64,000 bases of DNA, taken from contig NZ_FOEE01000012.1 of the NCBI RefSeq assembly GCF_900110555.1, positions 62,001-126,000 on the forward strand, written 5' to 3'. Origin of the DNA: Trujillonella endophytica (lineage in GTDB: Bacteria; Actinomycetota; Actinomycetes; Mycobacteriales; Geodermatophilaceae). Shown here piece after piece: positions 12,939 to 51,691 of the stretch; position 1 is the stretch's first letter; every line of letters starts with the position of its first letter. The position numbers and the translations under genes were made by a program. The notes under the pieces were generated by a model. The model had not been told where the DNA came from and ran no database searches. It saw nothing but the letters and a program-made list of their open reading frames with translations.

Positions 12939-12981
12939 CAGGGGCAGAGGTCGCCGACCCTGTTCTGTCAGACCCTCCCCA

Positions 12982-12987
12982 TACCGT
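12982..12987 (+). promoter_or_regulatory. Possible -10 box for the CBASS operon (leaderless)
   Basis: TACCGT fits the actinobacterial TANNNT -10 pattern and ends six bases before the GTG of the CBASS effector gene, which would give a leaderless transcript. No clear -35 is present and no Shine-Dalgarno sequence precedes the GTG. Suggestive only. Confidence 0.3.
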
Positions 12988-12993
12988 CGGAGT

Positions 12994-14160: not shown

Positions 14161-14248
14161 GCGCAAGGCACGGGCCGAGCCTAAACGTCCATCACCGGAC
14201 GGGGACACCGGTCATCGCTACGCCAACCACTACAACGGGGGGAATCCG

Positions 14249-15277: not shown

Positions 15278-15304
15278 TCGAGGAGCCGAACGAGCAGGGG
15301 ACCA

Positions 15305-17050
15305 GTGGGCCAGAAGAAGCGTGCGCAGTTCACGGACTGGCAGAAGTCTGCCGTCCGTGAACTGCGCCGCGTCGCCGCAGCCTTTCCCGACGACTTCCGG
15401 CTCATCGGCGACCCCAAGCCCAACGGCCTCGGGCTCGTCGTAACGCGCGTCCGCCTGCGAACCGGCGACCTGCCCCGCGCCCCACTCGGCCTCCCGCTGC
15501 GGCAACACGAGGAGTTCCTCCTCGGAATCGGCCCGAACCGCCTCTCCCCACCCCTGATCGAGGTGGACCACGGCCGATTTCTAGGGCACGCCCATGTCCT
15601 CCTCGGTCGGCGGCTATGCACCTACCTCGACCCGTCGCGCGAGTGGAACCCACAGAAGGGATTCGCCAGCGCAATCGACAGGCTTCACAAGTGGCTGCGC
15701 GAGGCGGCAGCAGGCGAGTTCAACTCCGACTCAGCCCTGTTCCACGCGGTCGGAGGGGTGCTCCACCGCACCCCAGGGACGCCAACCATCGTCGTCCGAA
15801 GCGCGGGCAGCCCCCTAAAGGCGCGGCGGGCCTACCTCACCCTTCGCTCGTCGCACCGGCACGACCTCCACTACGAACGCAGCAGCCCGGATCAACAGCA
15901 GTCCATCGTCTTCGACGTAGGCGAGCCCCTACCCCTCGGCGCGGGCTCCCTGCTGCAAGAACTCCTCCTCGTCCTAGACACGGCCCCAACACGCGACACC
16001 TTCTTCGTGCCGCGCGCCGACCCCCAGTCACCCGCCTTCCTCATCGCACTCGCGGCTGCCGCCACCCGGAATCCAGAGGGCACACCGCAGACCTTCGTTC
16101 TCACGATCCCGCACCCCACCGGCGGACCGCCGCATCTCCTTGCTGGCCGGATTCCGGGCTCCGCCGCTGACGAACTTCGCCGCCTCGTCCGAGAGCGGCG
16201 CCACCCAACAATCGACATCAGCGCTGACATGCTCGACGAGAAAACCCCTGTGGAGTGGTGCACCGTGTCCGACGAGCGCGACAGCGTCACTACCCGACGC
16301 GACACCAACCGCCCAACCGGCGCTTTCCTCGGCAAGACCGTCCACATCTGGGGCTGCGGCGGGCTGGGATCCTGGATCGCCGAGTTCATCGCCCGCGCAG
16401 GCGCCAAGCGCCTCATCCTGTGCGACCCAGGAAGCATCAGCGGAGGACTACTGGTCCGGCAGAACTTCACCGAAGACAACGTCGGAGCCTCGAAAGCAGA
16501 AGCCCTCCGACAGCGCCTCCTAGCGATCCGCGACGACATCGAGGTCGAAGCACACGTCGGCCCGATCCCCGATGACCTCGCCACGCTTCTGCTCACCGCT
16601 GACCTGGTCATCGACGCGACGATCTCCCGCGCCATCGGACAAGGGCTCGACGAACTGGCACCTGCTGAGGACCGACCGATGTTCGCGCAGGTCGCCACAG
16701 ACGCCGGGACCAGCACCCTCGGTCTACTTACTGTCAGCGATCGGACCAACCCGAAGGGGCCGAACGCCATCGACCAGCAGATCGGCGACGCCGTCAGGGC
16801 AGCCGGGGACCTGGAGCCGTTCCACACCTTCTGGAAGGACGTCTCACCGCGAGACGAACTCATCCCAACCCGAGGCTGCTCGATCCCGACCTTTCACGGA
16901 TCAGCCGCCGACCTCGCCGCCGTCGCAGCCACCCTGACCTCCATGCTCGGGAACCACCTGGCGAGCACCGAGCCAGTGTCGGGCAGTCACCTCATCGCAT
17001 TGCCGCACTCACCCGCAGGCCCCTTCCGCCGGTTCATCCCGGCGGCGTAG
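15305..17050 (+). CDS. cap2: CBASS Cap2, ubiquitin-like E2-E1 fusion ligase
   Basis: A 581-residue fusion. The N-terminal part is an E2-like domain with likely catalytic Cys105 (RRLCTY, followed by DPSREW). The C-terminal part is an E1-like adenylation domain with the nucleotide loop GCGGLGS at 350-356, an acidic strand after it (LILCDPG), and likely active-site Cys525 (RGCSIPTFHGSAADL). In type II CBASS, Cap2 activates the CD-NTase C-terminus and attaches it to a target, priming messenger synthesis. It starts 27 bp after the CD-NTase stop with GTG. The usual partner Cap3, a JAB/JAMM deconjugating protease, is not found downstream or anywhere else in the window. Confidence 0.9.
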   Translation: MGQKKRAQFTDWQKSAVRELRRVAAAFPDDFRLIGDPKPNGLGLVVTRVRLRTGDLPRAPLGLPLRQHEEFLLGIGPNRLSPPLIEVDHGRFLGHAHVLLGRRLCTYLDPSREWNPQKGFASAIDRLHKWLREAAAGEFNSDSALFHAVGGVLHRTPGTPTIVVRSAGSPLKARRAYLTLRSSHRHDLHYERSSPDQQQSIVFDVGEPLPLGAGSLLQELLLVLDTAPTRDTFFVPRADPQSPAFLIALAAAATRNPEGTPQTFVLTIPHPTGGPPHLLAGRIPGSAADELRRLVRERRHPTIDISADMLDEKTPVEWCTVSDERDSVTTRRDTNRPTGAFLGKTVHIWGCGGLGSWIAEFIARAGAKRLILCDPGSISGGLLVRQNFTEDNVGASKAEALRQRLLAIRDDIEVEAHVGPIPDDLATLLLTADLVIDATISRAIGQGLDELAPAEDRPMFAQVATDAGTSTLGLLTVSDRTNPKGPNAIDQQIGDAVRAAGDLEPFHTFWKDVSPRDELIPTRGCSIPTFHGSAADLAAVAATLTSMLGNHLASTEPVSGSHLIALPHSPAGPFRRFIPAA

Positions 17051-37188: not shown

Positions 37189-37923
37189 TCAGCGGCGCCG
37201 GGTGACCACGAGCGCGGTGACGAGCACGGCGGCCAGGCAGCCGAGCTGCAGCACCGGCGCGGTCAGCGGGGCCACCTCGATCAGCAGCGCGCCGGCGGCG
37301 GCGCCGACGACCAGGCCGGAGAGGATCTCCAGGCTGCCCCGGATCTCGCGCAGCCCCTTGCCCGAGGCCAGCTTCATGACGACGGTCGTGAGCGTGCCGG
37401 TCAGGTAGGTGGTCGACAGCCCGTTGACGCCGAAGCGCTGCACCGTGCTGCTCTGCACCCCGAGCGCGGCGGCCATGACGAACAGCAGGACCTGGGTGAG
37501 GACCGGACCGGGCTCCCCGCCGCTGATCCACCAGCCGATCGCGTAGACCGACAGCATCCCCAGCTCCACGGCCAGCCCCACGGTCACCGGGCGGGGCCAC
37601 ACCGCGTCGCCCGGCCGGGCTCCGCCGGCCAGCCGGGCCCCCAGCCACACCCCGATGCAGAAGGCGACGATCGCGCCGCCGCTGGCGATCGCGAGCGCGC
37701 CGTCGGTCGTGCTGGCCGAGGCACCGAGGATCACCAGGTTGCCGGTCATGACGCTGGTGAAGGCCCCGCCGAGGGCGAGCAGGCCGATCGCGTCGGTGGC
37801 GCCGCTGACGATCGCGAGGACGACGACGAGCCACTGGCGCAGGCCCGTGGTCATGCGGTCGACCGGGCCGGGGGCCTCGGCGACGGCGGCCGGCGGGGGA
37901 GGGGCGGTGGCGGGTCCGGGCAC
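37189..37923 (-). CDS. DUF1275 (YoaK-like) membrane protein
   Basis: About 244 residues from a GTG at 37923 with AGGGAG upstream. An ATG at 37989 and an ATG at 37854 are alternatives; the first has no usable RBS. Six or so membrane helices. The family pattern SGATDAIGLLALGGAFTSVMTGNLVILG is at the start of the membrane domain. The C-terminal half has GVQSSTVQRFGVNGLSTTYLTGTLT. DUF1275 proteins are putative transporters or permeases of unknown substrate. The gene is convergent with the PAP2 operon and divergent from the di-iron oxidase operon. Confidence 0.83.
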   Translation of the reverse strand: MPGPATAPPPPAAVAEAPGPVDRMTTGLRQWLVVVLAIVSGATDAIGLLALGGAFTSVMTGNLVILGASASTTDGALAIASGGAIVAFCIGVWLGARLAGGARPGDAVWPRPVTVGLAVELGMLSVYAIGWWISGGEPGPVLTQVLLFVMAAALGVQSSTVQRFGVNGLSTTYLTGTLTTVVMKLASGKGLREIRGSLEILSGLVVGAAAGALLIEVAPLTAPVLQLGCLAAVLVTALVVTRRR

Positions 37924-37992
37924 GGGGAGCAGTCTCCCTGACCGCGCAAGCACGTCGGCTTGGACGAAGTGCCCACGAACGGAGCGCATCCC

Positions 37993-38084: not shown

Positions 38085-38825
38085 ATGACCCAGACTCTCG
38101 CTCCCACCCAGCTGCTCGGCCCCGAGGAGTTCCGCGCCGCGATGCTGGACGCGATCAAGGGCCGCGAGGCCAGCAACGCGTCGTTCAGCAAGGCGTGGGC
38201 AGACGGCAAGCTCGAGCGCCACCACTTCGCCCGCTGGGCCGAGAACCACTACCAGTACGTCGGCCCCTTCGCCGACTACCTCGGCATCGTGTACGCCAAC
38301 ACCCCGGACACCTGCACCGAGGCGAAGGACTTCCTCCTCCAGAACATGTACGAGGAGGAGCTGGCCGACATCCGCCACACCGACCTGCTCATCCGCTTCG
38401 GTGAGGCCTGCGGCACCACCAAGGAGCGCATCGAGGACCCGAACAACGCCAACGCCGTGACCCGCGGCCTGCAGGCGTGGTGCTACGCCACCGCCTACCG
38501 CGAGCACTTCGTGGTGGCCACCGCGGCCCTGGTCGTCGGCCTGGAGTCGCAGGTCCCCGACATCTACAAGAAGCAGATCGTCCCGCTGCGCGAGACCTAC
38601 GGCTTCACCGAGGACGAGATCGAGTTCTTCGACCTGCACATCACCTCGGACGTCGTCCACGGCGAGCGCGGGTTCCAGATCGTGCTGGAGAACGCCACCA
38701 CCGTCGAGCTGCAGCAGCGCTGCCTGCAGTTCATCCGCTGGGGCGCGGAGATGCGCTTCAGCTACACCAAGTCGCTCTTCGACTCCTATGTCGCGCCCGA
38801 CCTCGAGGCCGCGGCCAAGGCCTGA
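38085..38825 (+). CDS. Haem-oxygenase-like di-iron oxidase/oxygenase (PqqC/CADD-like)
   Basis: 246 residues, an all-helical TenA/PqqC-like fold. The six ligands of the haem-oxygenase-like di-iron oxidase (HDO) family are all visible: Glu91-x6-His98 (EELADIRH), Glu154 (GLESQVPDIY) and His185-x3-Asp189-x2-His192 (HITSDVVH). This separates it from cofactor-less PqqC; no other PQQ genes are near. HDO enzymes use O2 to cleave C-C or C-N bonds or hydroxylate N. ATG at 38085. It heads a plus-strand operon with a Rieske ferredoxin and a ferredoxin reductase, which could supply electrons. The substrate is unknown; an amine or amino-acid derivative would fit the gamma-glutamyl enzyme downstream. Confidence 0.85.
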   Translation: MTQTLAPTQLLGPEEFRAAMLDAIKGREASNASFSKAWADGKLERHHFARWAENHYQYVGPFADYLGIVYANTPDTCTEAKDFLLQNMYEEELADIRHTDLLIRFGEACGTTKERIEDPNNANAVTRGLQAWCYATAYREHFVVATAALVVGLESQVPDIYKKQIVPLRETYGFTEDEIEFFDLHITSDVVHGERGFQIVLENATTVELQQRCLQFIRWGAEMRFSYTKSLFDSYVAPDLEAAAKA

Positions 38826-38842
38826 CCCCACCGGCCGGCCAC

Positions 38843-38884
38843 GAGCGGGGTGCCGGGGACGCACCCGTCCCCGGCACCCCGCTC
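38843..38884 (+). terminator. Perfect 19-bp hairpin between the oxidase and first Rieske gene
   Basis: Stems 38843-38861 and 38866-38884 are exact complements around a CACC loop, 18 bp after the oxidase stop and 52 bp before the Rieske ATG. No T-run follows. It may act as a partial terminator or protect the 3' end of a short oxidase mRNA, giving more oxidase than downstream enzymes. Confidence 0.6.
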
Positions 38885-38935
38885 GGCGTTGACCGACCTC
38901 GCCCGACCGCCGTCCCGAGACCCCCGGAGGAACCC

Positions 38936-39316
38936 ATGAGCGAGTGGGTGCACGTCGCCGAGCTCAAGGAGCTCACCCGGCGCAAGAAGAAGCAGGTGAT
39001 CGTCGACGGCAGGCCCGTGGCGCTGTTCCTCATCGACGGGGAGGTGTTCGCGCTGGACGACGTGTGCGTGCACAAGGAGCGGTTCCTGACCAAGGGCACG
39101 ATCCTCGACGGCCAGGTGATCTGCCCCGGGCACCAGTGGAAGTTCGACCCGCGCAGCGGCCGTCCCGAGGACCAGCCCGGGTGCCAGGCGACCTGGCCGG
39201 TGCAGGTCTCGGACTCCGGCGCCGTCCTGGTGGGCACCGTCCCCGCCACGCCGCGCGAGAGCAGCGGCCTGGAGGACACCCCCGACGTCGCCGCGGCCGG
39301 GAGCGAGCGGCCGTGA
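38936..39316 (+). CDS. Rieske [2Fe-2S] ferredoxin
   Basis: 126 residues. The Rieske cluster ligands are Cys44-x-His46 (CVHKERF) and Cys63-x2-His66 (CPGHQWKFD). The C-terminal 25 residues (ESSGLEDTPDVAAAGSERP) lie beyond the fold and look disordered. The ATG at 38936 follows CGGAGGAA. The stop overlaps the reductase gene (GTGA). Expected role: a soluble electron carrier between the FAD reductase that follows and an oxygenase, most simply the di-iron oxidase at the head of the operon. Confidence 0.9.
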   Translation: MSEWVHVAELKELTRRKKKQVIVDGRPVALFLIDGEVFALDDVCVHKERFLTKGTILDGQVICPGHQWKFDPRSGRPEDQPGCQATWPVQVSDSGAVLVGTVPATPRESSGLEDTPDVAAAGSERP

Positions 39317-40545
39317 CCGCCGAGCAGACCGTCGTCGTCGTCGGCGCCGGCCACGTGGCCGCCGCCCTCGTCAAGGCCGCCCGCCGGCGGGGTTTCGCCG
39401 GCCCGCTGGTGATCCTCGGCGACGAGCCGACCGGCCCCTACCAGCGGCCCATGCTGTCCAAGGAGCGCCTGGCCGGCGCCGGGGAGAGCGGCCTGTGGCT
39501 GCTGGACCCCCAGTGGTGCGCGGCCAACGACGTCACCCTGCGGACCGGCTCCCCGGTCGAGCGGGTCGACGCCGCCACCTCCTCGGTGCTCCTCGCCGAC
39601 GGCGGCAGCATCCCCGCCGACCTCGTCGTCCTCGCCACGGGTGGCCGCCCCCGGCAGCTGCCCGGCGTCGAGGGCGACCGCATCCACACCATCCGCACGC
39701 TCGCCGACAGCGACCGCCTGCGCGAGCGGCTCGCGCCCGGCCGGCGCATCGGCGTCCTGGGCGCGGGCTTCCTCGGCACCGAGGTCGCGGCCGCGGCGGT
39801 CGGTCGCGGGGCCGAGGTCGTCGTGTTCGACGTCGCCCCGGTGATCCTGGCCCGCGGCGTCGGCGCCGACATCGGCACCGCCGTCCAGGCGCTGCACGCC
39901 GGCAAGGGCGTGCAGTTCCGGCTCGGGCAGGGCATCGAGTCGGTCCGGGCCACGGCCGACGGCGTCACCGTGACGACCGCGGCCGGCGCCGAGACCGTCG
40001 ACGACCTGGTGGTCTGCATCGGCATCGAGCCGAACACCGAGGTCGCCGTCCGGTCCGGCCTCGTCGTCGGCAACGGCGTCGAGGTCGACGCGGAGTGCCG
40101 CACCTCGGTCCCCACGGTGTTCGCCGCCGGCGACGTCGCCGCCCACGACCACCCCCGGTACGGCCGGCTGCGCGTCGAGCACGTCGACGTCGCCCAGCAG
40201 CAGGCCGCCGCGATCGGGAAGACGATCGCCGGCAGGCCGACGACGTTCGCCGACCCCCACTGGTTCTGGACCGATCAGTACGACATCAACATCCAGGGCC
40301 TCGGCCTGGGGGGCATCCGCCCCGACGACCGGATGGTCGCCCGCGGCGACCTGTCCGCGCTGGACGGGACCGTGTTCTGGCTGCGCGGGGGCCTGCTGGT
40401 CGCCGCGGCCACGGTCGAGCGCGGCGAGGACGTCTCGGTGGCCCGCGAGCTGATCGACCTGGAGATCCCCGTGCGAGCCGAGCAGCTCGCCGACGAGGGG
40501 GTCGAGCTCGACGAGCTGCTCGACTCCGAGGAGGTCAACGCCTGA
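39313..40545 (+). CDS. FAD-dependent ferredoxin reductase
   Basis: 410 residues of the rubredoxin/ferredoxin reductase type. FAD-binding VVVVGAGHVAAALVKAARR at the N-terminus, NAD(P)H-binding GVLGAGFLGTEVAAAAV near 155, the AAGDVAAHDHP FAD motif near 272, and a reductase C-terminal domain (WFWTDQYDINIQGLG). It should move electrons from NAD(P)H to the adjacent Rieske ferredoxin. GTG start within the ferredoxin stop; its own stop overlaps the aldehyde dehydrogenase ATG by one base (TGATG). An acidic tail (EGVELDELLDSEEVNA) closes it. Confidence 0.93.
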   Translation: MTAEQTVVVVGAGHVAAALVKAARRRGFAGPLVILGDEPTGPYQRPMLSKERLAGAGESGLWLLDPQWCAANDVTLRTGSPVERVDAATSSVLLADGGSIPADLVVLATGGRPRQLPGVEGDRIHTIRTLADSDRLRERLAPGRRIGVLGAGFLGTEVAAAAVGRGAEVVVFDVAPVILARGVGADIGTAVQALHAGKGVQFRLGQGIESVRATADGVTVTTAAGAETVDDLVVCIGIEPNTEVAVRSGLVVGNGVEVDAECRTSVPTVFAAGDVAAHDHPRYGRLRVEHVDVAQQQAAAIGKTIAGRPTTFADPHWFWTDQYDINIQGLGLGGIRPDDRMVARGDLSALDGTVFWLRGGLLVAAATVERGEDVSVARELIDLEIPVRAEQLADEGVELDELLDSEEVNA

Positions 40546-42011
40546 TGAGCACCACCACCCCGACGGTCGCCGTGCGCAACCTGGTCGACGGCCAGTGGAC
40601 CGACTCGGTCACCGGCCGCACGGCCGAGCGGCGCAACCCGGCCGACGAGCGCGACCTGGTCAGCACCTATCCCGAGTCCGACGCGAAGGACGCCGAGGCC
40701 GCCGTCGCCGGCGTGCGCGCCGGCTGGCACGAGTGGGCCGCGAAGACCCCGGAGCAGCGCGGCGCGGTCCTGGAGAAGGCCGCCACGGTGCTCGAGGGCC
40801 GGCGCGCGAGCCTGGTCGAGGAGCTCGTCCGCGAGGAGGGCAAGACGCGCGCCGAGGCGACCATGGAGGTCTCGCGCACGCCGATGAACCTGCGCTTCTA
40901 CGCGGGCGAGGCGCTGCGGACCACCGGGTCGACCATCCCCAGCAGCGACGGCAGCCTGCTGTTCACCTGGCGGGGGCCGGTCGGCGTCGTCGCGGCGATC
41001 ACCCCGTGGAACTTCCCGCTGAACATCCCCTCCCGCAAGCTCGGCCCGGCGCTGGCCGCCGGCAACGGCGTGGTGTTCAAGCCCAGCGAGGTCACCCCGC
41101 TGCTGGGCACCCGGCTGGTCGAGGCCCTGCTCGAGGGGGGCGTGCCGGCGGGCGCCCTCGCCGTCCTGCACGGCGGCGCCGAGGTGTCGAAGGCGCTGGT
41201 CGCCGACGACGGACTCGACGCGATCACCTTCACCGGCTCCACCGCGGTGGGGGAGTCGATCCACTCCGTGGTGCGCGCCAGCCAGCGCACGCAGCTGGAG
41301 ATGGGCGGCAAGAACCCCATGATCGTGCTCGAGGACGCCGATCTCGACCGGGCTGCCACCCTCATCGCCAAGGGTGCCTTCGGCCTCGCCGGCCAGGCGT
41401 GCACGGGCACCAGCCGCGTCCTGGTCCACGCCGACGTGCACGACGCCCTGGTGGAGCGGGTGGCCGCGAAGGCGGAGAAGCTGCGCGTGGGCAACGGCCT
41501 GACCGACGGCGTCGACGCCGGCCCGCAGGCCACCGCCCGGCAGCGGGACAACGTCGTCGGGCACATCCGGCGCGCGCTCGACGCCGGCTCCCGCCTGGTC
41601 ACGGGCGGCCCCGAGGCCCCCGAGGGCGCGGACCTCGCGCACGGCCACTTCGTCCGCCCGACCGTCTTCACCGACGTCGACCCGGGCTCCGCGCTGGCGA
41701 CCGAGGAGGTCTTCGGCCCGGTGCTCGCGGTGCTGCGCGTGGGGTCGTTCGACGAGGCGATCCAGGTCGCGGGCGCCACGCGGTACGGCCTGTCGGCCGG
41801 CATCGTGACCAACGACCTGGCCCGGGCGATGCGCTTCGCTCGCGAGGTGCCCGCCGGCCTGGTGAAGATCAACCAGACCACCACCGGGCAGTCGATGAAC
41901 GCGCCCTTCGGGGGGCTGAAGGACAGCAGCACGCAGACGTCCAAGGAGCAGGCGGGAGAAGCGATGATGACCTTCTACACGGCCGACAAGACGGTGTACC
42001 TGAGCGCATGA
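40545..42011 (+). CDS. NAD(P)-dependent aldehyde dehydrogenase
   Basis: 488 residues, full length. Catalytic Cys286 (GQACTGTSR) and general base Glu252 (LEMGGKNP); cofactor region TPWNFPLN and FTGSTAVG. It resembles the group acting on semialdehydes such as 2,5-dioxovalerate or succinate semialdehyde and on other omega-aldehydes, but the substrate is not fixed by sequence. In the operon it would oxidise an aldehyde released by the oxidase or by deamination. ATG at 40545; the stop overlaps the next gene (ATGA). Confidence 0.94.
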   Translation: MSTTTPTVAVRNLVDGQWTDSVTGRTAERRNPADERDLVSTYPESDAKDAEAAVAGVRAGWHEWAAKTPEQRGAVLEKAATVLEGRRASLVEELVREEGKTRAEATMEVSRTPMNLRFYAGEALRTTGSTIPSSDGSLLFTWRGPVGVVAAITPWNFPLNIPSRKLGPALAAGNGVVFKPSEVTPLLGTRLVEALLEGGVPAGALAVLHGGAEVSKALVADDGLDAITFTGSTAVGESIHSVVRASQRTQLEMGGKNPMIVLEDADLDRAATLIAKGAFGLAGQACTGTSRVLVHADVHDALVERVAAKAEKLRVGNGLTDGVDAGPQATARQRDNVVGHIRRALDAGSRLVTGGPEAPEGADLAHGHFVRPTVFTDVDPGSALATEEVFGPVLAVLRVGSFDEAIQVAGATRYGLSAGIVTNDLARAMRFAREVPAGLVKINQTTTGQSMNAPFGGLKDSSTQTSKEQAGEAMMTFYTADKTVYLSA

Positions 42012-42451
42012 GCACTCCGGAGAACACCAAGCCCACGCCGGCCACCGACGAGGAACTCGCCGCGGCCAGCACCGAGTGCCAGTTCGTGCGGATCTGCCGC
42101 AAGGGGCAGGTCCCCGAGGGGTACGTGCGCCGCTTCTACGCCGAGACCGACAAGGGCCAGCTCGAGATCGCGGTGGCCCGCCTCGACGGCAAGGCGTACG
42201 CGACCTCCAACTACTGCACCCACCTGGACTGCCTGCTGAGCTCCGGGAAGCTGCAGGACGACGGCATCCGCTGCTCGTGCCACAACAGCGTCTTCGACCT
42301 GGAGACCGGCGCGCCGATCCAGCCGCCGGCGACCGAGCCGATCCGCACCTACCCGGTGCGCGAGGAGGACGGCCAGGTCCTGGTCGGCGTCTCCGAGCGC
42401 GACGTGCTCGAGGGCGGGCCCCGCCGGCGGAAGCCGCCGGCGGCCGGCTGA
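42008..42451 (+). CDS. Second Rieske [2Fe-2S] protein
   Basis: 147 residues. Ligands Cys70-x-His72 (CTHLDC) and Cys89-x2-His92 (CSCHNSVFD); Cys75 and Cys91 are extra cysteines near the cluster, as in Rieske proteins with a disulphide. The N-terminal 40 residues are additional and the C-terminal 15 are basic. It is not a copy of the first Rieske protein. Having two Rieske proteins in one operon is unusual: one may serve the oxidase, the other a second acceptor. ATG overlaps the dehydrogenase stop (ATGA); the stop overlaps the next ATG by one base. Confidence 0.88.
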   Translation: MSTPENTKPTPATDEELAAASTECQFVRICRKGQVPEGYVRRFYAETDKGQLEIAVARLDGKAYATSNYCTHLDCLLSSGKLQDDGIRCSCHNSVFDLETGAPIQPPATEPIRTYPVREEDGQVLVGVSERDVLEGGPRRRKPPAAG

Positions 42452-44079
42452 TGGCGGTCGGCAGCGGCACCTGGTCGCCGGCGGAGGAAGCCGGACGCGG
42501 GCCGACCGTCGCGACCGGCGGGATGGTCACCAGCAGCTCGCCGGCGGTGAGCCGGCTCGGTGCGGACGTGCTCGCACGCGGGGGCAACGCCGTGGACGCC
42601 GCCCTCGCGATGACGGCCATGGCCTGGCTGACCCTGCCCGGCCAGTGCGGCATCGGCGGGGACGCCTTCGCCGTCGTCCGCGAGCCCGACGGGCGGGTCT
42701 GGACGGTCAACGGCAGCGGCTACGGCCCCGACGGCGCGTCGGCCGAGGCCTACCTCGACGAGGGGCTGACGGCGCTGCCGCTGGGCGGGGCCCGGTCGGT
42801 CGCCGTCCCGGGGGCGATGGGCGCGCTCGCCACGCTGCACGCCACCGGTGCCACCCGCTCCCTCGCCGAGCTGTGGGCGCCGGTGGTCGCCGCCGCCCGC
42901 GCCGGGGTGCCCTGCTCGGTCAAGAACCGCGCCGACGTCACGGAGCACGCCGGGTCGATCGTCCGCGACGAGGGGCTCAGCCGCTGGCTGATGCCGGGCG
43001 GCCGGGTGCCCGCCGTCGGCGACCTGCTCCCGGCGCCGGAGCTGGCGGACTGCATCGAGATGCTCGCCGGCGACCCCCTGGCGCTGTACCGCGGGGAGCT
43101 GGCCGAGCGCGCCGTCGCCCTGCTGCGGGCCGGCGGGGCGCCGTTCTCCGGGGACGAGTGGGCCGACGCGGCCGCCGTCCCGGTGCTCGACCCGATCGTC
43201 GCGCCCTACGGGGACCTGCTGGTCCACCAGACGCCGCCGCCCACCCCCGGCTGGATGGTGCTCCAGCAGGCCGGGCTGCTCGACGGCGACCTGGCCGGGC
43301 CGCCGACCCTCGGCGCGGAGGCGGTGCACCGGATGGCGCTGGCCGCCCGCCGCGCCTTCCGCGACCGCTACGAGCGCTGCGGCTCCGACACCGATCAGTG
43401 GCGCACGCTGCTGGACCCCGCACACCTCGCCCGGACCCGGGCGGAGCTCAGCCGAGAGCCCGCGGTGGCCGGGATGGGCGTGGGCATGGCCGGTGACACC
43501 ACGAGTTGCGTCGCCGTCGACGCCGACGGCCGCGCGGTCAGCGCCATCTCGTCGCTGGCGTTCACCTACGGTGCCCGCATCTCGATCCCCGGCACGCAGA
43601 TCGCGCTGAACAACCGGCTCGGCCGCGGCGCCTACCTGGTGGCGGGGCACCCCAACGCGCTGGCGCCCCGGCGCAAGCCCCTGCACACGCTCAACGCCTG
43701 GCTGGTCACCGACCGCGCCGGCGGGCTGCGGCACGTGGGCAACACCCCCGGCGGCGACGGCCAGGTGCAGTGGAACATGCAGCTGATCTCGCACCTGGTC
43801 GACGGCGGGCTCGACCCGCAGGCCGCCGTCGGCGCGCCCCGGTTCACCGTCCACCCCGGCAGCGACGCCGACGCGGTGGGCAGCCCGGAGACGCTGCAGG
43901 TGGAGAGCCGGCTGGGGGCTGACACGATCGCCGGCCTCACCGACCGCGGCCACGTCGTCCAGGACATGGGCGGCTGGGGTGCCGGCGGCAGCGGTCTCGT
44001 GGTGTCGGTCGACGACCGGCGCGGTGTGCTGCTCGGCGGCGCCGACCCGCGGCAGGACGGGGTGGCGCTCGGTGTCTGA
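42451..44079 (+). CDS. Gamma-glutamyltransferase family protein (Ntn hydrolase)
   Basis: 542 residues. Autoprocessing site at Thr350-Thr351 (GDTTSCVAVD), giving a large subunit (1-349) and a small subunit starting with the nucleophile Thr. The usual His after TT is Ser here. The N-terminal GGMVTSSSPAVSRLGADVLARGGNAVDAALAM and GIGGDAFAVV are typical. No signal peptide, so it is cytoplasmic, unlike classical export-type enzymes. This points to hydrolysis of gamma-glutamyl intermediates or a related amide rather than glutathione turnover outside the cell. Overlaps both neighbours, so it is an integral part of the operon. Confidence 0.9.
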   Translation: MAVGSGTWSPAEEAGRGPTVATGGMVTSSSPAVSRLGADVLARGGNAVDAALAMTAMAWLTLPGQCGIGGDAFAVVREPDGRVWTVNGSGYGPDGASAEAYLDEGLTALPLGGARSVAVPGAMGALATLHATGATRSLAELWAPVVAAARAGVPCSVKNRADVTEHAGSIVRDEGLSRWLMPGGRVPAVGDLLPAPELADCIEMLAGDPLALYRGELAERAVALLRAGGAPFSGDEWADAAAVPVLDPIVAPYGDLLVHQTPPPTPGWMVLQQAGLLDGDLAGPPTLGAEAVHRMALAARRAFRDRYERCGSDTDQWRTLLDPAHLARTRAELSREPAVAGMGVGMAGDTTSCVAVDADGRAVSAISSLAFTYGARISIPGTQIALNNRLGRGAYLVAGHPNALAPRRKPLHTLNAWLVTDRAGGLRHVGNTPGGDGQVQWNMQLISHLVDGGLDPQAAVGAPRFTVHPGSDADAVGSPETLQVESRLGADTIAGLTDRGHVVQDMGGWGAGGSGLVVSVDDRRGVLLGGADPRQDGVALGV

Positions 44080-44509
44080 GGACCGCGCGACCAGCGCCGT
44101 CCCGCCGCAGGGGGCCTACGTCCCCGCGGTGGTCCACGGCGGCATGGTGTGGACGGCGGGGATGACGCCGCGCCGCAACGGGCAGCTGCTCGTGCGCGGC
44201 ACGGTGGGCCGGGAGGTCGACGTCGCCACCGCGCGAGAGGCGGCCGGGATCGCGGCCGGCAACACGCTGACCGCCGTCGCCGAGGCCCTCGGCTCGCTCG
44301 ACGCGGTGGAGCGGGCCGTGAAGCTGACGGTGTTCATCGCCGCCGTCGACGGCTTCACCGAGCACGCGGCGGTGGCCGACGGCGCCTCGGCGGTGCTGCT
44401 CGAGCGGCTGGGTGACCGCGGTGTCGTGGCCCGCGCCGCGATCGGGGTGGCCACGCTGCCCTCCGGGGCGCCGGTCGAGGTCGAGCTGCTGGCCGCCGTC
44501 CGCCGCTGA
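44072..44509 (+). CDS. RidA/YjgF family enamine/imine deaminase
   Basis: 145 residues. The family core GMVWTAGMTPRR and AIGVATLPSGAPVEVELLAAV are present, with the conserved Arg just before the latter. RidA proteins hydrolyse reactive enamines and imines that arise from amine or amino-acid metabolism. This is another hint that the operon handles a nitrogen-containing substrate. The GTG at 44072 overlaps the preceding gene by 8 bp. Last gene of the operon; a hairpin-forming repeat follows directly. Confidence 0.9.
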   Translation: MSEDRATSAVPPQGAYVPAVVHGGMVWTAGMTPRRNGQLLVRGTVGREVDVATAREAAGIAAGNTLTAVAEALGSLDAVERAVKLTVFIAAVDGFTEHAAVADGASAVLLERLGDRGVVARAAIGVATLPSGAPVEVELLAAVRR

Positions 44510-44523
44510 TCCGTTCTGGACGG

Positions 44524-44610
44524 GCAATTCCGCGCTTCTGCCCGGGGCAATTCCGCGCTTCTGCACGGAGCAATTCCGCGCTTCTGCACGGAGCAGAAGC
44601 GCGGAATTGC
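44524..44610. repeat. REP-like element: three direct and one inverted 18-bp unit
   Basis: GCAATTCCGCGCTTCTGC occurs at 44524, 44547 and 44570 and inverted at 44593, an exact 23-bp period. The third and fourth units form a perfect 18-bp hairpin with a 5-base loop. It lies between two convergent genes and could stop transcription from both sides. A related element is found at 51650-51691, again between convergent genes, so it appears to be a dispersed family in this genome. Confidence 0.85.
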
Positions 44611-44620
44611 CCCGGGGGGC

Positions 44621-45082
44621 TCAGGGGCGCTCGCCGACGCCCACCGTCGCGATGTGGTCGGCGAAGCCCTGCAGCGCCGCGGCGCCGACGGCCTTGTCCT
44701 GCTCGCCGTTGCCACCGCTGATGCCGACGCCGCCGACGACCTGGCCGTCGTGCAGGATCGGGAAGCCGCCGACGAAGATCGCGAACTTGCCCGGCAGCAT
44801 CTGGTTGATCCCGAAGGCCTCGTTGCCCGGCAGGGCGGGGCCGTTGGGCGGCTCGTTGAACAGGTGCGTGGCGCGCTCGTGACCGGCAGCGGTGAACGCC
44901 TTGGCGATCGAGATCTCCACGCCGGTCAGCCGGGCGCCGGGCAGCCGGTGCAGGGCCACGACGTTGCCGCCGTCGTCCACCACGCAGATGGTCTGCTTGA
45001 CGCCGATCTCCTCGGCCTTGGCACGGGCGGCCTGCAGCACGGGCAGCGCGTCGTCGAGGGTGATCCGGAAGACCTGGTGCAC
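44621..45082 (-). CDS. HbpS/GlcG-family protein
   Basis: 153 residues with the GlcG/HbpS fold: ALPVLQAARAKAEEIGVKQTICVVDDGGNVVALHRL, a middle KAFTAAGHERAT, and the C-terminal GGFPILHDGQVVGGVGISGG. The GTG at 45082 with GGAGGAG seven bases upstream is preferred over a longer frame into the divergent promoter region. Members bind haem or small cofactors or act as accessory proteins in catabolic loci. It is convergent with the RidA gene and divergent from the PucR gene, likely under the same control. Confidence 0.85.
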   Translation of the reverse strand: MHQVFRITLDDALPVLQAARAKAEEIGVKQTICVVDDGGNVVALHRLPGARLTGVEISIAKAFTAAGHERATHLFNEPPNGPALPGNEAFGINQMLPGKFAIFVGGFPILHDGQVVGGVGISGGNGEQDKAVGAAALQGFADHIATVGVGERP

Positions 45083-45216
45083 GGGGGTTCTCCTCCTCCG
45101 ACCTGGGGCCGGGTCGACTGCCGTCCCCAGGACGGGCGAGGACGGCGTACCCCCACACTCCTGCGCCGAAATCCCGCCAGCAATGGTGACACTGCCCCCC
45201 GCGCCGGGTATGCAGT

Positions 45217-45223
45217 TGTGCAC
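45217..45223. promoter_or_regulatory. TGTGCAC motif between the HbpS-like and PucR genes
   Basis: TTGTGCACT, 21 bp before the pucR-type ATG and in the divergent promoter region. Shares its core with sites at 37993 and 48474. Consistent with autoregulation by the PucR protein. Confidence 0.4.
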
Positions 45224-45243: not shown

Positions 45244-46947
45244 ATGCCGCACGCCCACTCCGACGCCGCGCTCACCCTGGCCCGCCTGCTGCAGGAACCA
45301 GCGCTGCGCCGGGCACGGATCCATGCCGGCCGCGCGGGCGCGGTGACCCGCCTGGAGTGGGCCACCCCGTGGGGTGCGGCGCTGGCGGAGGAGGAGCCGC
45401 TGGCCGGCGTCCTCGTGCACGCGCACGCCGCCGACCTCGCCGCGGACGGCACGCCGCTGGCCGAGGCCGCCGCCCGCCTGGCCGCGCGGGGTGCCGCCGC
45501 GCTGCTCCTGGACGGGCACGAGGCCGGGCCCGACGACGCCGCGGCCGCCTGCCGGCTCCCGCTGGCCACGATGTCGGACACCGTCGCCTTCGCCACCGTC
45601 AGCCGGCTGGTCGCCGATCTCACCCTCGCCCGCGAGACCCACGACCTCCGCTACGGGCTCACCGTCCACCGGGCCCTGGCCGAGCTGCTCTACCGGGGTG
45701 CCGAGCTGGCGGCGCTGTGCAGCCAGATGTCGCGGATGTCCCAGCGTCCGGTCGCGGTCTTCGACAGCTCGGGGGCGCTGGCCGCGCTCGAGCAGCCGCA
45801 GCCGCGGCTGGTCGACCCCGACGCGCTGGTCGCGGCGTTCGGCGCCCAGGCCGAGGCGCTCGGCACGGTGGGGGAGCCCCGCGAGCTGCACCCGCGGCTG
45901 GCGGGGCTCGTCCTCGCCGAGCGGGAGCTGGCGTGCGTGCTGACCCCGATCGTGCTCGGCGGCCGGCACGACGGCTGGATCGTGCTGCTCGAGGAGAGCG
46001 ACGACCCGCATCCGCACGACCTGGCACAGCACCGGGTCCTCGTGGAGCAGGCCGCACCGATCGTGGGCACCGAGATGCTCCGGCTGCGCAGCGTGCAACG
46101 GGCCAAGGAGCAGGCACGGGGGGACTTCGTGCACGGCCTGCTGCACGGCCGGTTCGCCACGCTCGAGGACATCAGCGCCCGCGCGGCGCACTACGAGTTC
46201 CCCGTGCGGTCGTGGTTCGGCGTGGTCGTCGCCTCGGGGGTGACCACGGCCGCGGACGTCGACTCGCCCACCCGCCTGCAGGGGATCGCGTTGCAGGCGG
46301 CCCGGCTGCTGCCCGAGCAGGACCGGCACACCCAGGCCGCGATGGTCGGGGACGTGCTCGTCGTCGTCCGGGAGGCCGCCCGCCGCGGGACCATGGGGAC
46401 GCCGGACATGGCCGTGGCGACGATCGGCGAGTACGCCACCGCTCTGCACCGCTACCTGTCCCGCCGCAAGGACCAGGGGGGCCGGCCCGTGCGGGTGGCG
46501 TACGGCCGCCCCGCGGTGGGAGCCCTCGCCATCCCCGACAGCTACCGCGAGGCGCGGTTGGCCCACGGGCTGCAGGGCCGGCTCGAGCTGGCGCCGGTCT
46601 GCGGCTACCAGGAGCTGCGGGTGCACGCGGTGCTGGAGGAGGTGGCCGCCAGCCGCACCGGCCGCTCCTACGCCACCGACGTCCTGGCGCCGCTGCGCGA
46701 CCCGTCGGCGGGGGAGCTGGAGGCGACCGTGCTCGCCTACGTGTCCGCGGGGGGCAACGTCAACGCCGCCGCCCGCGACCTGCACATCCACCGCAACACG
46801 ATGCTCTACAAGCTGGACCGGGCCTCGCGCCTGCTCGGCATGGACCTGCGGCAGGCGGAGAACCAGTTCGCCGTCTGGCTGGCGCACACCCTCGACCTGC
46901 TCGCCGAGACCGGCGCGGAGGTGGACCGGGTGGTCCGCCCGGCGTGA
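45244..46947 (+). CDS. PucR/CdaR-family transcriptional regulator
   Basis: 567 residues. A PucR-type N-terminal sensory region (about 1-140), a GAF-like middle, a GGDEF-like CdaR region (about 290-450) and the C-terminal PucR helix-turn-helix (AGGNVNAAARDLHIHRNTMLYKLDRASRLLG, about 502-535). Such regulators activate purine, allantoin, amino-acid or amine catabolism when the substrate appears. It lies in the middle of the oxidase/gamma-glutamyl locus and is the obvious local regulator. ATG at 45244 with AAGGAG seven bases upstream. Confidence 0.92.
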   Translation: MPHAHSDAALTLARLLQEPALRRARIHAGRAGAVTRLEWATPWGAALAEEEPLAGVLVHAHAADLAADGTPLAEAAARLAARGAAALLLDGHEAGPDDAAAACRLPLATMSDTVAFATVSRLVADLTLARETHDLRYGLTVHRALAELLYRGAELAALCSQMSRMSQRPVAVFDSSGALAALEQPQPRLVDPDALVAAFGAQAEALGTVGEPRELHPRLAGLVLAERELACVLTPIVLGGRHDGWIVLLEESDDPHPHDLAQHRVLVEQAAPIVGTEMLRLRSVQRAKEQARGDFVHGLLHGRFATLEDISARAAHYEFPVRSWFGVVVASGVTTAADVDSPTRLQGIALQAARLLPEQDRHTQAAMVGDVLVVVREAARRGTMGTPDMAVATIGEYATALHRYLSRRKDQGGRPVRVAYGRPAVGALAIPDSYREARLAHGLQGRLELAPVCGYQELRVHAVLEEVAASRTGRSYATDVLAPLRDPSAGELEATVLAYVSAGGNVNAAARDLHIHRNTMLYKLDRASRLLGMDLRQAENQFAVWLAHTLDLLAETGAEVDRVVRPA

Positions 46948-46962: not shown

Positions 46963-48381
46963 TCAGCCGGCCACGGGCGCCGTCGCCGGTGCCGGCGCGG
47001 CGTCGGGCACCTCGCGCCCGGCGAAGCTGAGCGCGAGGCCGCCGAGCGCGATCGCGGCGCAGCCGCCGAACAACCAGGACAGGTGGCCGGGGTAGGCCGC
47101 GGCCACGCCGGCGGCGCCGACGGAGGCGCCGACGAACCGCATCATGTTGAACAGGCCCAGCCCCGCGCCCTTCTGGCCGGCCGGCGAGCGGGTGGCGCCG
47201 GTGAGCGACGGGGTCTGCACCAGGGCCACGCCCAGGCCGGCGACGACGAGCAGCACGCCGAAGGCCGGCACCGAGGTCGACCGGTTGCCGAGGAGCACCG
47301 CGAGCAGCACGGAGACGCCGAGCAGGACCAGCAGGCCGGTGCGCAGCACCGGGCGCGGGCCGATGCGGTCCGACAGCCGCCCGACCAGCGGGGCGGAGAC
47401 CGCCCACACCACCGGCAGCAGGAAGACCAGCAGCCCGGTGGCCGTGCCGGACAGGTCCACGACGCCGGTCAGGTGCAGCGGCACGGCGACCAGCAACGAG
47501 AACAGCGTCACCTGCTGCACGAACACCCCGGTGGCGCTGCGCAGCCAGCGCATCTCGACCAGCAGCCGCGGGTCGATGAAGCCGTCGGGGCGCCGCAGCC
47601 CGGAGACGACGAAGCCGACGAGAGCGAGGACGCCGAGGGCGACGGCCGCGAGCGGCGCCCACCCCGGCACGTCCTGCGGCGCGATCGTCACCGCCGTCAT
47701 CAGGGCCGCCACGCCGAGGGTGAGGGAGCCGACCCCGCGGACGTCGATCGGCACCCGCTCGCCGCGCTCGCGCGGCATCATCGTCGCGGCCAGGACCAGG
47801 ACCCCCACGGTGACCGGCAGCAGCACCCAGAAGATGGCGCGCCAGCCCAGTGCGTCGGCGAGCAGGCCGCCGACCGGCGGTCCCACCGCCTGGCCGATGC
47901 CGTTGGCCGCACCCCATGCGCCCATGACGCGGCTGCGCCGGTCGTCGGGCCAGGTGCGGGCCAGGGTGCCCATGACCGCGACGGGAACCAGGGCGCAGCC
48001 CAGCCCCTGGACGGCGCGGAAGGCGACCAGGACGGGCAGCGTGGGGGAGAGGGCGGCGCCCAGGGTGCCGACCAGGAGCACCGACATGGCGAGCACGAGC
48101 GTGCGCCGCCGGCCCAGGCGGTCGCTGATCCAGCCGGTGACCGGCATGGCCACGGCCAGGACGAGGACCGTCGCCGAGGCGACCAGCACGCCCTGGCTCA
48201 CGGGGGCGGTGAAGCCGTCGGTGATCTGGCGCAGCGGAACGTTGACGACGTTGTTGCTGACGGTCCCGAGGAAGGTCGCGCCGAGCAGTGCGGCCAACAG
48301 CCAACCCGCCCGCGGCGGTAGCGCGCCGCCCCCGCTGGGTACCGCGGGACGGGGGATCCGCGCCTGTCGCATCGAGGTCAC
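46963..48381 (-). CDS. MFS drug/metabolite efflux transporter (DHA2-like)
   Basis: 472 residues with about 12-14 membrane helices. Motif A GWISDRLGRRRT follows helix 2, and RAVQGLGCALVPVAVMG is the motif B region. The VGPPVGGLLADALGWRAIF segment is typical of QacA/EmrB-like antiporters. The GTG at 48381 or the ATG at 48372 may be the start. It is convergent with the PucR gene and divergent from the permease at 48556, and so could export a product or toxic intermediate of the locus. Substrate unknown. Confidence 0.88.
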   Translation of the reverse strand: MTSMRQARIPRPAVPSGGGALPPRAGWLLAALLGATFLGTVSNNVVNVPLRQITDGFTAPVSQGVLVASATVLVLAVAMPVTGWISDRLGRRRTLVLAMSVLLVGTLGAALSPTLPVLVAFRAVQGLGCALVPVAVMGTLARTWPDDRRSRVMGAWGAANGIGQAVGPPVGGLLADALGWRAIFWVLLPVTVGVLVLAATMMPRERGERVPIDVRGVGSLTLGVAALMTAVTIAPQDVPGWAPLAAVALGVLALVGFVVSGLRRPDGFIDPRLLVEMRWLRSATGVFVQQVTLFSLLVAVPLHLTGVVDLSGTATGLLVFLLPVVWAVSAPLVGRLSDRIGPRPVLRTGLLVLLGVSVLLAVLLGNRSTSVPAFGVLLVVAGLGVALVQTPSLTGATRSPAGQKGAGLGLFNMMRFVGASVGAAGVAAAYPGHLSWLFGGCAAIALGGLALSFAGREVPDAAPAPATAPVAG

Positions 48382-48471
48382 CGAACGTCCTCCCCGTGTC
48401 GTGCCGGCCCCCAGCGTGTCAACAGACCGGAAACGTTCCTACGGCACGCTGCACATTCCACGGTGGGTGAG

Positions 48472-48481
48472 ATGTGCACAT
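48472..48481. promoter_or_regulatory. ATGTGCACAT palindrome between two transporter genes
   Basis: A perfect 10-bp palindrome in the divergent MFS-permease region, centred on the same GTGCAC core found before the oxidase operon and before the PucR gene. It is the most symmetric of the three copies. Confidence 0.45.
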
Positions 48482-48555
48482 CGTTCATGGACGGTCCCCG
48501 CCCGTTCGGGGACGTTGCTCTCCATCACATTGGGCTCACACCCGTAGGGGCGTCG

Positions 48556-50229
48556 ATGCAACTCGAAGCAGCGCACTGGGTCTTCCTGGCCGGGGTCGTC
48601 GTCATCCTCGCCACGATGATCATGCGCAAGAACATCGTGGTCCCGGCAGTCGTGGCCACCTTCCTCACGGCGCTGGTGTACTCCGGCAGCCTGGCCACGG
48701 GGCTGTCGGCGGTCTTCAACGCCAGCCTCGTGGCGGCGACCAGCCTCTTCAACATCTTCCTGATCATCGCCATGGTGACGGCGATGCTCCGGTCGCTGGA
48801 GGGGCTGGGGGCCGACCGGCGCATGGTGGCGCCGTTCCGGCCCCTCATGCGCAACGGCCACCTGGCGTTCTGGACGCTGGTGATCGTCACGTACTTCATC
48901 TCGCTGTTCTTCTGGCCGACGCCCGCGGTGCCGCTCATCGGTGCGGTGCTGGTCCCGGTGGCGATCCGCGCCGGGCTGCGGCCGCTTGCCGCCGGCTTCA
49001 CGATCGCGATCGCCGGCCAGGGCATGGCGCTGTCGTCGGACTACGTCATCCGCGTCGCGCCCGGCCTGTCGGCCACCGCGGCCAACGCCGACCCGAACGT
49101 CGTCGCCGACCGGGCCTTCGTGATGTCGCTGATCGTGGGCGGGATCGCGCTGGCCATCGGGTACGCGATGGAGGTCCGCAAGATGCGGCGGCCGGCCGAC
49201 CAGTGGCTGGACGACTGGGAGACCGCCGCCGAGCGGGGTCTGCGGTCCGCGGACGCCGAGTCCGGCGCCGACGTGCCCGAGGGCCCGGGTGGCGGCGTGA
49301 CCGCCGGGGGCGGCGGGGCCGTCGGCGGAGGCGGTACGGCCGGTCGTCCGGGCGGCCCCGGCGGCGGCACGGCCGTCGAGGAGCGCGAGCTCGTCGGCAC
49401 GGCGGTGCCGCTGAACGAGGCCGGCGAGCCGCGACTGGTCGGGCACGGCCTCTCGCTGCGCGGCACCCCGGCGGGGGAGCCGGTCCCGGCGGAGGCACAC
49501 ACCGTGCACCCGGTGGACAAGCCCGCGGCGTCGAAGTTCTTCGCGCTCTTCGTGCCGCTGGCCTACGCGGCCCTGATCGTCTACCTGATCGTCGCCAGCG
49601 TCTCGGACTCCGTGCCGGACCTGCAGGGCGGTGACGCCGCGGCCCTCGTCGGCGGGATCGCGCTGCTGACGATGTTCGGCGCCGCGTTCGCCCGCAACCG
49701 CCACACGTTCATGGAAACCTCCGCCGAGCACATCGTCGACGGCCTCGTCTTCGCCTTCAAGGCGATGGGCGTCGTGCTCCCGATCGCCGGATTCTTCTTC
49801 CTCGGCAATGGCGAGTTCTCCGCCCAGATCATGGGCCTGGGCGAGGAGACCGGGCCGGCGTTCCTGTACGACCTGGTCGTCAAGGGGCAGGACCAGCTGC
49901 CGTCCAGCGGCATGATCACCGCCTTCGGCATCCTGCTCGTCGGCCTGATCGCCGGCCTGGAGGGCTCCGGCTTCTCGGGTCTGCCGCTCACCGGCTCCCT
50001 GGCCGGCTCCCTCTCCGAGGGCGCCGGGGTCAGCAGCCCGACGCTGGCGGCCATCGGCCAGATGGGCAACATCTGGTCCGGCGGCGGCACGCTGGTCGCG
50101 TGGTCCTCGCTGCTGGCGGTCGCCGGCTTCTGCCGGGTGCCCGCGGTCGAACTGGCCCGGCGGTGCTTCCTGCCGGTCATGGCCGGGCTGGTCGTCTCCA
50201 CCGTGGTGGCGGTGGTGGTCTTCGGCTGA
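48556..50229 (+). CDS. Polytopic membrane permease, probable substrate uptake
   Basis: 557 residues from the ATG at 48556 (RBS TAGGGG); an in-frame start at 48463 would add 31 residues over the palindrome. Two membrane halves, about 5-6 helices each (1-210 and 320-557), are split by a long cytoplasmic loop (about 215-335). That loop includes a Gly-rich low-complexity run (GGGVTAGGGGAVGGGG). The C-terminal half has GMITAFGILLVGLIAGLEGSGFSGLPLTGSLA, reminiscent of transporters in the ion-transporter superfamily, but I cannot name the family. Position beside the PucR/oxidase locus with a shared upstream motif suggests it imports the substrate. Confidence 0.65.
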   Translation: MQLEAAHWVFLAGVVVILATMIMRKNIVVPAVVATFLTALVYSGSLATGLSAVFNASLVAATSLFNIFLIIAMVTAMLRSLEGLGADRRMVAPFRPLMRNGHLAFWTLVIVTYFISLFFWPTPAVPLIGAVLVPVAIRAGLRPLAAGFTIAIAGQGMALSSDYVIRVAPGLSATAANADPNVVADRAFVMSLIVGGIALAIGYAMEVRKMRRPADQWLDDWETAAERGLRSADAESGADVPEGPGGGVTAGGGGAVGGGGTAGRPGGPGGGTAVEERELVGTAVPLNEAGEPRLVGHGLSLRGTPAGEPVPAEAHTVHPVDKPAASKFFALFVPLAYAALIVYLIVASVSDSVPDLQGGDAAALVGGIALLTMFGAAFARNRHTFMETSAEHIVDGLVFAFKAMGVVLPIAGFFFLGNGEFSAQIMGLGEETGPAFLYDLVVKGQDQLPSSGMITAFGILLVGLIAGLEGSGFSGLPLTGSLAGSLSEGAGVSSPTLAAIGQMGNIWSGGGTLVAWSSLLAVAGFCRVPAVELARRCFLPVMAGLVVSTVVAVVVFG

Positions 50230-51649: not shown

Positions 51650-51691
51650 GCAGGAGCGCACAATTGCCCCGGGGCAGGAGCGCGGAATTGC
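51650..51691. repeat. REP-like element, second locus
   Basis: Two direct copies of an 18-bp unit (GCAGGAGCGCACAATTGC at 51650, GCAGGAGCGCGGAATTGC at 51674) flanked by CCCCGGGG. They are close relatives of the inverted unit at 44593. The element sits between two convergent genes, as at 44.5 kb. Confidence 0.75.

Follow-up and report, generated by a model that had tools for sequence, protein, structure and literature searches.

What a di-iron oxidase is doing at the head of a row of Rieske, reductase and hydrolase genes is the question raised by one locus of Trujillonella endophytica (assembly GCF_900110555.1), which lies within 64,000 nucleotides of contig NZ_FOEE01000012.1 (positions 62,001 to 126,000; this whole stretch is called the window, and its numbering is used throughout). 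At 38085-44509 the window carries seven linked plus-strand genes, located just where an earlier sequence-only reading, the original prediction, had put them. They encode, in order, an oxidase of the HDO superfamily (heme-oxygenase-like fold), a soluble Rieske protein (Rieske-1), an FAD-dependent ferredoxin reductase, an aldehyde dehydrogenase (ALDH), a second Rieske protein (Rieske-2), a gamma-glutamyltransferase (GGT)-like enzyme and a Rid-superfamily protein, and Pfam assigns a family to every one of them (Table 1). The stop-start overlaps claimed for the row join the six genes from Rieske-1 through Rid at five junctions, but the HDO gene itself is set apart from Rieske-1 by a 110-bp gap. 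We found no described function for the operon. Comparison of sequences makes it most likely that the HDO acts as terminal oxygenase, fed by NAD(P)H, in an operon for catabolism, and an oxygen-dependent pathway acting on an amine or a nitrogen-containing acid, much as first proposed, is still the likeliest reading. The fuller version has the operon supply both a multicomponent HDO oxygenase and the later enzymes of a pathway that degrades a nitrogen-containing organic acid; we consider it evenly poised between right and wrong.

The six metal ligands claimed for the oxidase (Glu91, His98, Glu154, His185, Asp189 and His192) are all present, and are invariant in 29/29 rows of an alignment of the window with 28 of 80 fetched actinobacterial loci and in 5/5 rows of an alignment with three Cupriavidus sequences and one from Caballeronia. 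An AlphaFold2 model (pLDDT 89.8) has a heme-oxygenase-like helical fold whose best match in the PDB is CtCADD (TM 0.79/0.90), with further matches to PqqC, UndA, HrmI and BesC. The modelled fold and the set of three histidines and three carboxylates together place the protein in the HDO superfamily. Among solved structures CADD comes closest in sequence as well as in fold, with the aligned ligand positions kept, as would be expected if the protein were a self-sacrificing p-aminobenzoate (pABA) synthase of the CADD/PabS kind or a cofactor enzyme like PqqC, in an operon that is not a single pathway. However, the HDO scores 87.1 bits against the CADD model TIGR04305 (cut-off 200) and 41.7 bits against the PqqC model TIGR02111 (cut-off 240), and where CADD has its sacrificial tyrosine (Tyr27 in CtCADD) the aligned residue here is Ser35 in all rows of both alignments (29/29 and 5/5). 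Both identities were dropped on the family cut-offs and the tyrosine position, the catabolic-type genes linked to the HDO also speak against them, and we see a very slight chance that either is correct. A phage origin of the gene was rejected as well: a search of 50,697 phage records at E 1e-5 turned up no HDO, and none of nine pattern matches in viral contigs was confirmed.

Both Rieske proteins contain the CxH...CxxH motif, and the NCBIfam models nearest to Rieske-1 and the reductase are those of the anthranilate dioxygenase chain, AndAb and AndAa. The ALDH lies nearest to 2,5-dioxovalerate and alpha-ketoglutaric semialdehyde dehydrogenases (best models NF052305 and NF042993, both under cut-off); indeed, none of the NCBIfam models listed for the seven proteins, among them the best 25 of 40 for the reductase and the best 25 of 44 for the ALDH, reaches its curated cut-off. 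By Pfam there is no Rieske oxygenase alpha subunit among the 11 cassette proteins of the window, which leaves the HDO as the only evident candidate for activating O2. Electrons would pass from NAD(P)H to the FAD reductase, on to the Rieske proteins and finally to the di-iron HDO.

A scan of genome contigs returned 507 stretches with a relative of the HDO, and the best 80 of these, all actinobacterial by their record titles and spread over 19 named genera, were examined. The original prediction had called for a neighbourhood search for the HDO, Rieske and GGT-like set, and the set was recovered: taking a tblastn match at E 1e-6 anywhere in the fetched stretch as presence, Rieske-1, the reductase, Rieske-2 and Rid each occur in 62/62 of the loci with full flanks (at least 8.5 kb on both sides of the HDO, 62 of the 80). 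The ALDH follows in 61/62, the GGT-like enzyme and the PucR-type regulator in 60/62 each, the HbpS-like protein in 59/62, the major facilitator superfamily (MFS) transporter in 58/62 and an orphan membrane transporter in 48/62, the last count being a lower bound for any locus that, like the window, has this gene farther out than the 9 kb fetched. HDO, Rieske-1 and reductase genes are adjacent on one strand, with Rieske-1 directly after the HDO, in 78/80 loci; one exception is a contig end and the other a locus in which Rieske-1 went undetected although a gap exists there. The window's seven-gene order recurs in 53/80 loci. Thirteen loci are rearranged, and in these the HDO-Rieske-reductase-Rieske block stays contiguous, with Rieske-2 directly after the reductase, while the ALDH, GGT-like and Rid genes either went undetected or lie at other places in the fetched sequence, most often on the far side of the HDO. 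By median identity the slowest-changing proteins are the HDO (82%) and the HbpS-like protein (79%) and the fastest PucR (40%), MFS (45%) and the reductase (46%). This co-localisation dismisses a chance neighbourhood, and the HDO operon is a real conserved set.

Among 72,556 plasmid records, an HDO orthologue was found in six, four from Cupriavidus and two from Caballeronia; a loose limit adds 19 records at 20-29% identity, some of them partial and 12 annotated as PqqC. The cluster of Cupriavidus metallidurans CH34 comprises the orphan transporter, an OCD/mu-crystallin protein, the HDO, an ALDH, an HbpS-like protein, a reductase with Fer2, FAD and NAD domains and a GntR regulator. Its reductase (best model BenC/AntC) and its OCD protein (best model Delta1-pyrroline/piperideine-2-carboxylate reductase) both score under cut-off and are 58% and 52% identical, respectively, to their Caballeronia counterparts. 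In Caballeronia sp. SBC1 the genes after the HDO encode an ALDH, an HbpS-like protein, a reductase of the 2Fe-2S type, a member of the OCD family and an MFS transporter; upstream lie genes for an alpha/beta hydrolase and a GntR regulator and two genes annotated as 2Fe-2S binding, of which the one that was scanned is Fer2. No Rieske or FAD-reductase match was obtained in the 10-12 kb flanks of either genus; judged by these domain matches, the redox chain is a different one and not lost. Near the HDO cluster of Caballeronia sp. SBC2 (L100 1-6061), the annotation also lists ring-hydroxylating dioxygenase alpha and beta, amidase and SDR genes, which we take to resemble an indole-acetate (iac-type) catabolic cluster.

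The claim that the electron chain belongs to the HDO is upheld by linkage: adjacency in 78/80 loci, its survival as a contiguous block in the 13 rearranged operons and the other [2Fe-2S] chain in two genera of another phylum all suggest that the HDO has an NAD(P)H chain of its own. The same three findings argue against an alternative in which the Rieske proteins and reductase serve another oxygenase, or protect or reactivate an HDO that takes no external electrons, the linkage then reflecting co-regulation only. In the available part of a review, the HDOs studied are described as needing no protein effector of the kind known from other diiron oxygenases, although MboA needs MboB for its second step (PMC13108848). 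That statement favours the alternative, as does a divergent actinobacterial locus, G127, where tblastn found no reductase in 19.5 kb and the best match lies megabases away, so that the chain need not be dedicated everywhere. We regard this alternative as quite unlikely. A second PF14518 gene of the T. endophytica genome lies in locus L105. Five open reading frames (ORFs) there had no Pfam match, but one or more of them had been read in the wrong frame, and this outcome carries no weight; the window proteins gave no tblastn match in L105 at E 1e-4, which fits an HDO without such a chain, though it is not a full test.

The absence of a protein effector in that review and of a reductase at G127 weighs against the catabolic oxygenase that we favour, and so do several further points. 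The 80 loci, being the best of 507, are close relatives of the window, and a tblastn match to the ALDH anywhere in a stretch may be a paralogue. Two of the 62 full-flank loci gave no GGT-like match, and in these (L089 and L092) no substitute emerged from the three ORFs examined, none of which could be assigned a family. At G127, whose HDO is 73% identical to that of the window, the neighbours include a Rieske and a Rid gene, an HbpS-like protein, a luciferase-like monooxygenase, an OCD protein and an ALDH, but the GGT-family protein there is merely 27% identical to the window's. The flanks searched in Cupriavidus and Caballeronia contain no GGT or Rid match, and no hydrolase was identified in the Cupriavidus cluster. 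Finally, the HDO gene is sporadic in distribution: a close orthologue (86-96%) occurs in 4/96 of the nearest relatives, and the gene was found in 13/396 genomes of a sample of the order, which shares some of these relatives, and in 2/395 other genomes of an even sample of the phylum, one of them merely 32% identical. In favour of the catabolic oxygenase, on the other hand, divergent actinobacterial HDOs still have an adjacent Rieske gene and a Rid gene, as at G127 and again at G563, a 4.6-kb contig with an HDO of 61% identity. The HDO of G135 (about 30-32% identical; L104 6092-10228) looks unrelated in function; it lies amid succinate dehydrogenase genes, where it overlaps the SdhB-type gene that comes immediately after it and is preceded by two membrane-subunit genes.

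The GGT-like enzyme belongs to the GGT family, as had been claimed, and keeps a threonine, T350, at the position of the E. coli GGT nucleophile (14/14 rows). In the E. coli enzyme Thr391 is catalytic, and R114, N411, Q430, D433, S462 and S463 bind the gamma-glutamyl part; the residues aligned with these six here are S89, A370, R389, R392, H412 and T413, likewise invariant in 14/14. All six compared binding positions being replaced, gamma-glutamyl transfer is unlikely and a true gamma-glutamylation pathway is disfavoured, and the score of 194.8 bits falls short of the TIGR00066 cut-off (357.85). The protein is probably an amidohydrolase and not a gamma-glutamyltransferase. Two of its invariant arginines stand at positions that bind the glutamyl part in GGT, and its substrate is perhaps acidic. 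Comparable members of the GGT family with a threonine at the nucleophile position are the acylases and hydrolases of structures 2nlz and 2i3o and presumably the oxamate amidohydrolase HpxW. The label RidA given to the last protein of the operon needs a similar correction: it passes both Pfam cut-offs of the Rid superfamily (48.4 bits against 27.3 for PF01042 and 42.3 against 35 for PF14588) but not that of the RidA type (34.8 against 106.25 for TIGR00004). Its nearest solved structure is PA0814 (9bk9), with an arginine of which its R121 is aligned.

Further hints of the substrate come from the orphan transporter. Its AlphaFold2 model (pLDDT 74.9) suggests an elevator-type fold, with weak Foldseek matches to MleN, TRAP, INDY and DiT1, and the resemblance to elevator-type carboxylate transporters (MleN, TRAP and INDY) hints at an organic acid. 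In the plasmid collection the transporter occurs in the six records with an HDO cluster and in one other, plasmid p1 of Arthrobacter sulfonylureivorans (L099 10284-21624), where the homologue lies beside a luciferase-like monooxygenase, a flavin reductase, an amidase, an ALDH and a Rid protein. Judged by its genes, this set is a possible cluster for the breakdown of an N-heterocycle or amide, and we take it to resemble pyridine-ring cleavage pathways. Together, the GGT-like enzyme, Rid, the transporter and the Arthrobacter set point to oxidative opening of an N-containing carboxylate followed by aldehyde oxidation, amide hydrolysis and imine hydrolysis. The orphan transporter would import the substrate and the PucR-type protein would sense it. 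The HDO would activate O2 for the oxidative cleavage of a C-C or C-N bond in the compound taken up; the resulting semialdehyde would retain an amide or formamide together with an enamine or imine. The ALDH would oxidise the aldehyde, the GGT-fold N-terminal nucleophile (Ntn) hydrolase would cleave the amide, and hydrolysis of the imine or enamine by Rid would yield a 2-oxo acid and an amine, 2-oxoglutarate being a product that would suit the ALDH type. The candidate gene for the imine step is Rid in actinobacteria as against OCD/mu-crystallin in Cupriavidus, and the candidate hydrolase is of the GGT fold in actinobacteria as against an alpha/beta hydrolase in Caballeronia; in the proteobacterial version the OCD protein may reduce the imine in place of hydrolysis by Rid.

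As to the class of substrate, a pyridine or N-methylpyridinium carboxylate is our tentative choice, with less than an even chance of being right. A non-aromatic amine or amino acid could be catabolised instead: the HDO would desaturate or cleave it in the manner of BesC or UndA, Rid would clear the enamine and the ALDH would oxidise the released aldehyde, and no ring would be opened. In favour of this, Rid and OCD-type proteins handle imines, and PucR-type control is linked to nitrogen compounds. The characterised HDOs mostly use amino and fatty acids, according to the review (PMC13108848). This alternative on its own leaves unexplained both the conserved amide-hydrolase-type enzyme and the transporter shared with a luciferase-monooxygenase/amidase cluster, and we judge it unlikely.

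If a single compound had to be named it would be homarine (N-methylpicolinate), a guess that is doubtful. The operon might then be the actinobacterial form of the published homarine pathway, homABCDER, which is a special case of the favoured catabolic reading and overlaps with it in probability. The OCD, HDO, ALDH, HbpS and reductase genes of Cupriavidus, with GntR as regulator, match the name homABCDER in number (five plus one), and a ketimine reductase yielding N-methylglutamate would suit homarine chemistry. Mgd acts on N-methylglutamate. A conserved homarine pathway of environmental bacteria that involves Mgd was described in a 2026 paper (Nat Microbiol), as cited in PMC13390433; its chemistry is possibly the same as that of the operon. 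Against this, the match consists of gene count and chemistry only, and the plasmid collection contains no HDO orthologue from Ruegeria or another marine bacterium, the proteobacterial ones there being confined to Cupriavidus and Caballeronia. We hold this version to be unlikely. The main text of PMC9870897 does not mention homarine.

The features of the locus are collected in Table 1.

Table 1. Genes and other features at and around the HDO operon, in window coordinates
Feature	Position	Strand	Evidence
HDO di-iron oxidase	38085..38825	+	PF14518 (Haem_oxygenas_2) 3.7e-34
Rieske-1, soluble Rieske ferredoxin, AndAb-like	38936..39316	+	PF00355 3.1e-17; CxH...CxxH at residue 44; under AndAb model cut-off
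FAD-dependent NAD(P)H:ferredoxin reductase with Reductase_C domain	39313..40545	+	PF07992 (Pyr_redox_2) and PF14759; AndAa 5e-93, under cut-off
Aldehyde dehydrogenase	40545..42011	+	PF00171 (Aldedh) 5.8e-150; motifs LEMGG, QACT
Rieske-2, second soluble Rieske protein	42008..42451	+	PF00355 9.9e-18; CxH...CxxH at residue 70
GGT-fold Ntn hydrolase	42451..44079	+	PF01019 (G_glu_transpept) 1.1e-85
Rid-superfamily protein, proposed imine/enamine hydrolase	44072..44509	+	PF01042 (Ribonuc_L-PSP) and PF14588
Repeat array between Rid and HbpS genes	44524..44616	.	Repeat search: three direct copies at 23 nt spacing and one inverted copy
HbpS/GlcG-like protein	44621..45223	-	PF03928 5.6e-35
PucR-type transcriptional regulator	45244..46947	+	HTH_30 6e-18; GGDEF_2 2.2e-10; PucR domain 5.1e-05, under cut-off
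MFS transporter, DHA2 type	46963..48381	-	PF07690 3.6e-51; TIGR00711 under cut-off
Orphan membrane transporter, 588 aa, proposed uptake system	48463..50229	+	No Pfam or NCBIfam match
DUF1275 membrane protein, divergent from HDO, optional neighbour	37189..37989	-	PF06912 7.7e-28

The regulator, the HbpS-like protein and the two transporters that the original prediction had placed around the operon were all found. The HbpS-like gene, second to the HDO in conservation, accompanies it in actinobacteria, Cupriavidus, Caballeronia and G127. In 20 sampled loci, one ORF cluster beside the cassette recurred in more than five (8/20) and was named DUF1275-like by eye from sequence likeness; of the other clusters, one is a second transporter copy (three loci) and the rest, some of them shadow frames, occur in two to five. 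The repeat copies downstream of Rid could fold into long hairpins and are possibly a bidirectional terminator; a similar 18-mer is seen again at 51674-51691. Elsewhere in the window, a defence island at 5373-17050 lies in the lower-GC part; it begins with type I restriction-modification genes (methylase, specificity and restriction subunit), after which come a candidate defence protein and, as a CBASS set, a SAVED-type effector, an SMODS cyclase and an E1-E2 protein.

These data describe a conserved gene set of soil bacteria in which a di-iron enzyme, with what appears to be its own electron supply, stands beside enzymes with which the cell would degrade a nitrogen compound for its nutrition. 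If that is correct, HDOs enter nutrient breakdown as well as biosynthesis and can be fed by a Rieske chain, the different redox partners in different phyla offer a tractable system, and the conserved HbpS-like protein and the orphan transporter gain a role. The 507 genome stretches with an HDO relative suggest that the compound consumed may be a common natural one. At its most specific, the proposal is of a new class of multicomponent oxygenase in which an HDO with a captured Rieske dioxygenase chain cleaves an N-heteroaromatic carboxylate for carbon and nitrogen acquisition, as the first catabolic HDO, with an HbpS-like protein as a so far unrecognised conserved partner and an orphan transporter family for uptake; this we put forward as possible, with the balance on the side of doubt.

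The original prediction knew of no described case of an HDO with a redox chain of its own, and in this it is out of date. The pairing is already known from MboA and MboB of mangotoxin biosynthesis, described in a 2026 paper that presents an HDO with a dedicated NADH-flavin-Fe2S2 partner, perhaps the first such pair (PMC13185094), and a precedent for the reading favoured here. The HDOs described in the available parts of that paper and of the review (PMC13108848) are biosynthetic. No HDO fed by Rieske proteins or placed in a catabolic context came up in our literature searches, in which papers other than those named here were judged by their listings. MboAB resembles the present system in the dedicated NAD(P)H-flavin-Fe2S2 supply encoded in the same cluster, as the redox partner is beside the HDO in nearly all loci here, and the Cupriavidus reductase likewise has flavin, NAD and 2Fe-2S domains; it differs in being biosynthetic, with a tripeptide substrate and one reductase, where the operon has an FAD reductase and two Rieske proteins. 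The anthranilate dioxygenase chain shares with the operon an FAD reductase with a C-terminal domain and a small Rieske ferredoxin, but the operon proteins score under the AndAa and AndAb cut-offs and the HDO stands where the Rieske oxygenase alpha subunit would be. The AndAa/AndAb chain is of the class IIB Rieske oxygenase type. Closest in overall logic are the TgnABCDE and Pyr pathways of pyridine-ring cleavage, in which an oxygenase, an ALDH and an amidase act in turn before the amine is released, as we propose for the operon; those pathways use flavin monooxygenases, whereas here that step would fall to an HDO with a Rieske chain.

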